From Hahella sp. KA22 (GTDB taxonomy: Bacteria; Pseudomonadota; Gammaproteobacteria; Pseudomonadales; Oleiphilaceae), in assembly GCF_004135205.1 (NCBI RefSeq), contig NZ_CP035490.1, positions 2,621,501 through 2,685,500 of the forward strand: a stretch of 64,000 nt of DNA, given 5' to 3'. Positions 19,314-50,727 of the stretch are shown here, in pieces. The notes beneath the pieces were generated by a model. The model saw only the letters and a program-made list of their open reading frames with translations. It searched no databases and was not told where the DNA came from. The position numbers were made by a program, and so were the translations under genes. Every line of letters starts with the position of its first letter. The first letter of the stretch is position 1.

Positions 19314-19784
19314 ATGATCGCCGAAGCGCATTTCAGCAAGTCAAAACGCTATTACGAAGAAGAATATAGTCAGTGGCTCAAACATATTGACCGTTGGAGG
19401 AAGTACGCCCCTCTATGGGCGGGCTTCCTGCTTGCGGCAGGCGCTGTGTCTTGCGTTGTTGGCGGCGTTTACCCTTTATCTTTTGGCGTGGTTGCGCTGA
19501 TTTATGGCGCGGGCGCTTTCATTGCGATTCCCGCTCGGAAAAAACGATGGATAAACCATCGAATGAAGAGCGGGAAACGCGTCGCTGAAATCAAAATCCG
19601 TTTCTATAAAGACGGGATCGGTTTTGGCGTAGGCGATGAGAAAAAGTGGCCTGAGTCGGTGCTTAAAACCGAAACGGGTATGTTTGTTCGCATGGAAAAC
19701 TACGGTCCGTTTATTTATATCCCCACCGACGCAATTCAGCCCGCTCAGGCTGCAGGAATGCTTGGCGAAATTTATTCTTATTAA
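19314..19784 (+). CDS. Hypothetical membrane protein (156 residues)
   Basis: Two adjacent membrane segments (APLWAGFLLAAGAVSCVVGGV and PLSFGVVALIYGAGAFIAIPA, residues 32-73) are flanked by a charged N-terminus and a C-terminal cytoplasmic domain of about 80 residues (EIKIRFYKDGIGFGVGDEKKWPES). The layout resembles YcxB-like proteins: two membrane helices followed by a small beta domain. That family assignment is tentative. The last codon and the stop codon (TAT TAA, 19779-19784) are the first six bases of the 148-bp hairpin repeat, so the repeat supplies the end of this gene; the original C-terminus may have been altered by its insertion. Confidence 0.55.
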   Translation: MIAEAHFSKSKRYYEEEYSQWLKHIDRWRKYAPLWAGFLLAAGAVSCVVGGVYPLSFGVVALIYGAGAFIAIPARKKRWINHRMKSGKRVAEIKIRFYKDGIGFGVGDEKKWPESVLKTETGMFVRMENYGPFIYIPTDAIQPAQAAGMLGEIYSY

Positions 19785-19926
19785 CATGGCAATGATATTG
19801 GCATGTTAATCACCAGGCGCATGGACGCGCCTGCGCGGCGACAAGCCGCGGGAGACAGGGCCTGACCTGTGCAGGCCCTGTCGTTGCAGACAAATAGAAG
19901 GAAGCTATTTGTCTGCCGGATTAATA
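19779..19926. repeat. 148-bp five-hairpin repeat, copy 1
   Basis: This element is identical base for base to 50580-50727. It folds into five consecutive hairpins: 19780-19810 (14-bp stem, one G.G mismatch, GAT loop), 19814-19833 (7 bp), 19834-19850 (6 bp), 19854-19882 (11 bp, gacagggcctg/caggccctgtc) and 19887-19915 (11 bp, cagacaaatag/ctatttgtctg). Its ends are TATTAA and TTAATA, a 6-bp terminal inverted repeat. It has no coding potential of note. It may be a REP/MITE-like non-autonomous mobile element or a structured RNA, and could work as a transcription attenuator after the 156-residue gene. Confidence 0.9.
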
Positions 19927-20281: not shown

Positions 20282-20435
20282 TTGAGCAGTCTGTAAGTAA
20301 ATCTGATATTTATGCAATACCATTTCGAAGTCCTGTCTATAGTCCTCGTCCTGTTTTCATAAGTAATAGAAAAACTTCCAGCAAAGCGGCCTTATGCAAG
20401 GCATTGATTTACCCAAGATTATTTAGGATATGACT

Positions 20436-20645
20436 ATGTCCAATACTGTTACCGGCACTGTAAAGTGGTTCAATGAATCCAAAGGTTTTGGTTTTATCGA
20501 GCAAGAATCCGGTCCTGACGTTTTTGCTCACTTCAGCGCCATCACTGGTTCTGGTTTCAAAACTCTGACCGAAGGCCAGAAAGTCGAGTTCACAATTACT
20601 CAGGGACAGAAAGGACCTCAGGCAGAGAACATCGTTCCGCTGTAA
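20436..20645 (+). CDS. CspA-family cold-shock protein
   Basis: A 69-residue single cold-shock domain: [18 protein letters not shown] with RNP1 (KGFGFI), and DVFAHFSAI as RNP2, ending in [13 protein letters not shown]. It binds single-stranded nucleic acid and melts RNA structure. Two in-frame ATGs exist at 20430 and 20436; AGGA at 20425-20428 is seven bases before the second and only one base from the first, so 20436 is the better start. The Phe-Ala-His variant of the usual FVHF is common. It is followed by a strong terminator. Confidence 0.95.
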
Positions 20646-50579: not shown

Positions 50580-50727
50580 TATTAACATGGCAATGATATT
50601 GGCATGTTAATCACCAGGCGCATGGACGCGCCTGCGCGGCGACAAGCCGCGGGAGACAGGGCCTGACCTGTGCAGGCCCTGTCGTTGCAGACAAATAGAA
50701 GGAAGCTATTTGTCTGCCGGATTAATA
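50580..50727. repeat. 148-bp five-hairpin repeat, copy 2
   Basis: Identical to 19779-19926 over all 148 bases, in the same orientation, with the same five hairpins at 50581-50611, 50615-50634, 50635-50651, 50655-50683 and 50688-50716. The flanking bases differ from copy 1 immediately outside TATTAA...TTAATA. Here it lies in a gene-free stretch, so it is not the 3' end of a conserved gene. Confidence 0.9.

Follow-up and report, generated by a model that had tools for sequence, protein, structure and literature searches.

RUP and Correia/NEMIS, two bacterial MITEs related to IS630, have TA as their target. A further IS630-related MITE, 89 bp long and derived from ISMma9, is described from Methanosarcina mazei (PMC3852290). 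The element analysed here resembles the bacterial IS630-related MITEs in being short and gene-less and in having ends in common with an IS630 element, but none of them was found described with a conserved five-hairpin Csr/Rsm-type RNA across several families. MITEPsy1 of Pseudomonas syringae is likewise a bacterial MITE, of about 100 nt and thought to be moved in trans by its parental IS, but according to its description its ends are IS5-like and it duplicates 4 nt, CTAG or YTAA (PMC3189936). On the RNA side, the closest systems are the Csr/Rsm antagonist RNAs CsrB and RsmX/Y/Z, which present A(N)GGAX loops on consecutive stem-loops (for RsmZ, see PMC4005645). Compared with these RNAs, the MITE has two such sites instead of many, is mobile and multicopy and has no Rfam match, and unlike for these RNAs, no terminator or promoter of its own was identified in it. 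A small RNA derived from the tnpA of Salmonella IS200 is also a transposon-born regulatory RNA, in which the authors note GGA motifs and propose a test with CsrA, but it comes from the transposase transcript and CsrA binding is a suggestion of that report (PMC12594629). A literature search, which covered few subscription papers, returned neither a description of the element nor any MITE reported to carry Csr/Rsm sites. While an IS630 MITE is a known kind of element, what would be new is an RNA cargo with Csr/Rsm-type hairpins that is common across the order.

The locus lies in a window of 64,000 nucleotides from Hahella sp. KA22 (contig NZ_CP035490.1, positions 2,621,501 to 2,685,500), this window being the whole stretch of DNA that was analysed. 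The best explanation we can offer for it, at a probability of about 0.6, is an IS630-mobilised MITE whose transcript would carry two Csr/Rsm-type hairpins. The first-pass annotation had reported two identical 148-base copies about 30.8 kb apart, with breakpoints at TATTAA and TTAATA and a fold of five consecutive hairpins, and all of this is found in the window. The copies at 19779-19926 and 50580-50727 are identical across 148 bases at a spacing of 30,801 bases, TATTAA...TTAATA bounds both of them, and RNAfold gives five hairpins on either strand with z about -9. The + strand of copy 1 reaches -78.3 kcal/mol compared with a shuffled mean of -45.3 (z -8.8, with 0 of 200 shuffles equal) and the - strand reaches -75.1 kcal/mol (z -9.4), with linkers of 0-3 bases separating the five hairpins. 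The parts of the locus are as follows.

19779..19926, + strand: MITE copy 1 including both TAs; the site is empty in the same-genus genomes G001, G004 and G006
19779-19780 and 19925-19926: TA target duplication of copy 1
19781-19924: mobile unit of copy 1, 144 bp
19779..19804, + strand: left terminal repeat TATTAACATGGCAATGATATTGGCAT, with 20 of 26 bases as in the IS630 left end
19914..19926, - strand: right terminal repeat, reading inward, TATTAATCCGGCA, with 13 of 13 bases as in the IS630 right end
19780..19810, + strand: hairpin 1, a palindrome on the left terminal repeat with 13 pairs and one mismatch
19814..19833, + strand: hairpin 2, with the hexaloop AUGGAC at 19821-19826, of the ANGGAX type
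19834..19850, + strand: hairpin 3, with a variable loop
19854..19882, + strand: hairpin 4, with 11 pairs; extended in most of the non-Hahella relatives
19886..19916, + strand: hairpin 5, with 12 pairs and the loop AAGGAAG at 19898-19904
50580..50727, + strand: MITE copy 2, identical to copy 1, with loop 2 at 50622-50627 and loop 5 at 50699-50705
19314..19784, + strand: neighbouring ORF of 156 aa, no Pfam match; its stop codon is the insertion target

About 0.5 kb past copy 1, positions 20349-20602 of the window resemble a cold-shock protein gene and give a weak match to the Rfam cspA thermoregulator (36.1 bits, cut-off 78).

The mobility of the element can be read from empty sites within the genus. 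The site of copy 1 reads ...ACT-TA-ACAAAAA in G001 and G006 and ...ACG-TA-ACAAAAA in G004, and the occupied site in the window reads TA[TTAACATGG...GGATTAA]TA-ACAACAA. A duplicated TA likewise marks 2540643 and 2570372 when these are compared with both G006 and G001, and 2474753 when compared with G001. As the TA is duplicated at empty sites, the mobile unit comprises 144 bp. Site 2484767 is empty in G006, yet at one end the window genome carries an additional three bases; site 2583605 is empty in G006 and G001, where the TA itself is altered; and for copy 2, the intergenic region in question is also occupied in G001, by a copy whose flanks differ. Insertion occurs at TA, with a preference for Y-TA-R and with duplication of the TA: among 83 copies with intact ends from several genomes, 66 have T or C immediately before the TA and 73 have A or G immediately after it.

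Copy 1 has hit the TAA stop codon of the ORF at 19314-19784, and the element now provides TAT TAA, which adds one tyrosine. Since both ends of the element read TATTAA inward, a stop codon struck in that frame is restored at once. The earlier statement that the element is unrelated to its flanking genes needs a small correction for copy 1, which supplies the last codon and the stop of this ORF. With genes called by a codon-score heuristic, 77 gene 3′ ends point towards a copy, 8 of them with the same 6-base overlap; of 77 copies, none is internal to a called gene and 5 are without clear neighbours. In G001, the ortholog of this ORF (L162/L155) has an independent, left-truncated copy inside the gene; the left junction of this copy coincides with CGCATGG, a 7-base match between element and gene, as though the two had been fused there by a deletion.

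A search with PF13358 identified IS630-type transposases in 5 of 7 same-genus genomes. One group of these transposases belongs to an IS630 element about 1.1 kb long (1102 bp including both TAs in L182) that has TATTAAYMNGGCA-like ends. This element is present as three full-length and two shortened copies in G000, as three full-length copies and a partial one in G006, and in G001 as an intact copy and a second one interrupted by a stop codon. It encodes a protein of 344 aa, which is matched by NF033545 (IS630 family transposase, E 8.5e-70) and also by PF13358. Between MITE and IS630 element, the right ends are identical in 13 of 13 bases and the left ends in 20 of 26. When scored against the right IS630 end, the four MITE ends (19, 19, 17 and 17 of 26) top all 37 TATTAA sites of the window, the next site reaching 15. 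These end matches and the top rank of the MITE ends imply that the IS630 transposase very probably moves the MITE in trans. Short and gene-less, with ends in common with an autonomous IS630 element and with a TA target duplication demonstrated by empty sites, the element is almost certainly a non-autonomous MITE of the IS630 kind. The non-autonomous mobile element that had been proposed at first is thereby supported, through the TA-duplicated empty sites and the matching IS630 partner.

The initial impression that the repeat belongs to no described family stands for Rfam, in which no family matches the element, and falls for the ends, which match those of IS630. The one Rfam overlap (mir-196 on L298, E 0.78) is taken as chance, and the Rfam models of the small RNA genes CsrB and RsmX/Y/Z are without a match on the element. 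Palindromes of the REP/RAYT or IS200/IS605 type involve single-strand insertion without target duplication; they were rejected here as the TA is duplicated and the MITE shares its ends with an IS630 element of the DDE type.

The host genome, a single contig of 6,960,771 bases, contains roughly 100 copies of the element. With up to 3 mismatches allowed, hairpin 1 occurs there 96 times and hairpin 5 97 times, compared with 0 for the reversed control patterns, and the repeat is far beyond chance. There are 85 pairings of hairpin 1 with hairpin 5, 80 of which are spaced 106-108 bp, and at least 14 copies are identical over all 148 bases, copies 1 and 2 of the window included. Matches occur in at least 5 of 7 genomes of the genus (at least 43 in G000, at least 40 in G001, at least 41 in G004, at least 42 in G006 and at least 4 in G002), and the Hahella relatives bear their own variants of the element. 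Among the matches listed, G003 and G005 are without the element, and the best identity to the window copy is 99% in G001, 93% in G004 and G006, and 76% in G002. In a named genome collection, from which the own genome was possibly omitted, the exact hairpin 5 gave 4 matches, all of them in Hahella sp. HN01. A viral origin was rejected, with the exact hairpin 5 pattern in 0 viral contigs. A long autonomous form was considered and rejected as well: there is one pair of hairpins 1 and 5 that lie 3.5 kb apart (6905679, 6909200), with no ORF between them recognised as a transposase when the translations were read.

Several remnants were observed in the genus. In G000, L107 (G000:C1:6903500-6911500) has the left and right halves of the element 3.5 kb apart, and the ORFs between them appear BON-like, desaturase-like and OmpA-like when named from their translations by eye. 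L114 and L115 of the same genome are solo hairpin 1 palindromes (TATTCACATG...CATGTGAA and TATTTACATG...CATGTAAA) with compensating changes and no recognisable remainder of the element. L108 1514-1592 (G000) and L037 1501-1648 (G004) have flanks common to two species; the G004 copy is full length, and the G000 copy has lost the middle and right hairpins and kept the TATTAA...ATTAATA ends.

As judged from alignments, the five-hairpin architecture is common to diverged relatives in other families of the order, and its stems co-vary. In 94 of 95 distinct copies from the genus Hahella (alignment A1, from which the 118-bp L246 copy was left out), 96.2% of cells pair in the fold, double-sided changes amount to 26 cells compared with a shuffled mean of 4.7 (0 of 500 shuffles as high), and each of the five helices has at least one double-sided pair. 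Slid structures pair only 25-43% of cells, yet reach up to 24 double-sided cells; that count alone is therefore not decisive, and the shuffles and the pairing percentage weigh more. A first covariance model, R1, detected relatives in 4 other genomes when 194 of the order were scanned. After retraining with the new relatives, the resulting model R2 found the element in at least 22 of 390 evenly drawn genomes, representing 13 of 143 genera and 8 families with the own genome included; no match is among those listed for 17 same-family genomes of other genera. A closer scan gave 34, 30 and 37 matches in G215, G294 and G326, respectively. The stems of the relatives are largely rewritten, with hairpin 4 often longer and containing an inner hairpin. 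Among the matches listed, many relatives, including those in G215, G294 and G326, have kept the TATTAA...TTAATA ends, and several single-copy relatives are without them. In G326, from a different family, the MITE is accompanied by a separate IS630 element that measures about 1.1 kb and has TATTAACCCGGCGA ends, making a second IS630-MITE pair. No IS630 partner was found in G215, G294 and G113, and G198 has only a broken one.

A palindrome in DNA is strand-symmetric, and transitions in its stems should therefore yield G-T and A-C mismatches equally. Changes from paired to GU and from paired to AC were counted by parsimony on trees made from about 150 columns, on the strand that shows the ANGGA loops. 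The GU:AC ratio in Hahella is 24:3 on internal branches (p 5e-5) and 73:47 on terminal ones, in G326 11:1 and 31:12, and in the remaining 32 rows (5 of them Hahella) 18:10 and 26:9, while G215 and G294 together show no significant G-U excess (8:3 internal, 34:31 terminal). As a control, unpaired columns in Hahella give 61:81 compared with 109:67 in stems (Fisher p 0.001). These unpaired columns lean the opposite way, so that a mutation bias between the strands does not explain the G-U excess in the stems there. The corresponding control in G326 gives 69:31 for stems compared with 47:38 for unpaired columns (p 0.07). In a simple count there are 141 G-U versus 58 A-C cells and a ratio of 39:35 in distinct pair types; singletons, at 6:21, lean towards A-C, which is read as the signature of decaying copies. 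Selection on the folded sense RNA is likely on this evidence, being supported in Hahella and G326 and not significantly so in G215 and G294. The strand-specific G-U excess, the co-varying stems and the order-wide relatives provide comparative evidence for a structured RNA, another of the initial suggestions.

The same observations bear on an alternative that we regard as unlikely, namely an ordinary IS630 MITE without an RNA role, in which palindromes at the DNA level aid transposition or arise by template switching and the loops reflect recent descent. Such an element would be expected to show the random orientation seen here, with sense copies no better preserved than others; the terminal repeat makes up hairpin 1, and palindrome repair can also produce paired changes. 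It does not explain why G-U exceeds A-C on one strand, or why stems are rewritten across families while GGA is kept in loops 2 and 5 and not in loop 3.

The reading of a MITE with a Csr/Rsm-type RNA depends on these two loops in particular. In alignment A4, which was fitted to the model and comprises 83 matches, 5 of them from Hahella, GGA is present in loop 2 of 70 of 83 rows and in loop 5 of 69 of 83, compared with 2, 7 and 10 of 83 for loops 1, 3 and 4, with some ascertainment possible as the loops were included when the covariance model was trained. If the Hahella rows are set aside, the counts become 67 of 78 for loop 2 and 65 of 78 for loop 5, and among the 40 best-scoring rows they are 38 and 37. 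Copies with damaged loops were also recovered by the model (L283, L371, L372, L333 and L319). Loop 2 typically reads A-N-G-G-A-X (ANGGA in 63 of 83), where N and X take all four bases, and is closed by a C-G pair in 67 of 83 rows; loop 5 reads AAGGAAG in Hahella and elsewhere often C[AGGAX]G. Within Hahella, 81 of 94 copies have ANGGA in loop 2 and 86 of 94 have AGGA in loop 5, and loops 3 and 4 occur in 29 and 20 versions. A hexaloop ANGGAX that sits immediately on a stem is described as the high-affinity RsmE/CsrA site, and RsmZ as also having 5-nt loops without N (PMC4005645); A(N)GGAX loops on stems, as in a Csr/Rsm-binding RNA, are what the element presents. CsrA/RsmA as the reader appears to be the best explanation of the loop pattern, and we somewhat favour this protein as the putative ligand of hairpins 2 and 5. 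All 12 genomes examined for a CsrA gene have one, that of Hahella being at G000:C1:2133702-2133857; this is to be expected and gives weak support. In G063, a weak rsmX match (L296 1234-1351, 27.5 bits, E 0.11, cut-off 56) lies 150 bp before the element.

It is improbable that the GGA loops serve ribosome binding in the manner of a Shine-Dalgarno sequence or belong to an RNA-binding protein other than CsrA/RsmA. The AGGA of loop 5 does resemble the Shine-Dalgarno core, and a called gene begins 7-8 bp past the element in L310 and L318, but N and X of loop 2 vary (AUGGAC, AGGGAU, AAGGAA, ACGGAU), a pattern which A(N)GGAX fits better.

If the MITE acts through its transcript, its position relative to genes has to be considered. 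The Hahella contexts comprise 16 sense tandem, 27 antisense tandem, 17 convergent, 12 divergent and 5 unclear cases, and 35 loci elsewhere, with a few orthologous pairs included, comprise 17 sense, 7 antisense, 4 convergent, 4 divergent and 3 unclear ones. There is no orientation bias in these data (p 0.13 in Hahella and p 0.06 elsewhere, in opposite directions), and the pooled tandem cases are 33 sense to 34 antisense. Better preservation of sense copies was not found in a comparison of 21 sense with 27 antisense copies (p 0.86). As sense and antisense copies are equally intact, RNA selection seems to act on the propagating lineage or on a few expressed copies, and not on every resident copy.

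Context also decides against the multi-stem transcription terminator or 3′ mRNA stabiliser that the first-pass annotation had entertained, and this role is now very improbable. Copies do lie within 60 bp of 46 of 77 gene 3′ ends versus 22 of 67 gene 5′ ends, but gene 3′ ends are also simply safer insertion places. An intrinsic terminator has a stem and then a U-run, and the element sequence has no U-tract after any of its stems. A sense copy separates infB from rbfA in G235 and truB from rpsO in G305, and G186 has a sense copy in a like place near the S15 leader, all of which argues against termination. The copies in G305 and G186 (L315 and L319, from one genus) seemingly occupy the same truB-rpsO place beside the ribosomal S15 leader.

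According to the preferred reading, an IS630-mobilised MITE with a Csr/Rsm-type cargo, read-through transcription from hairpin 1 towards hairpin 5 would give an RNA that folds into the five hairpins, in which hairpins 2 and 5 would each offer one Csr/Rsm (CsrA/RsmA/RsmE) site, enough for one protein dimer. Locally, the host transcript could come under Csr/Rsm control or have its stability changed; summed over the copies, the Csr/Rsm protein could be titrated. A more far-reaching proposal, which we put forward tentatively from sequence comparison, is that the MITE family carried a Csr/Rsm-binding RNA domain across several families, seeding up to about 100 mobile sites per genome, with neighbouring transcripts put under the regulator and read-through copies acting as a genome-wide sponge. 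If true, a transposon family would have become part of a global network of post-transcriptional regulation. Should the binding be real, mobile DNA would rewire a global RNA regulator by spreading its sites, which would explain why the five-hairpin fold of a gene-less parasite has been kept across several bacterial families.
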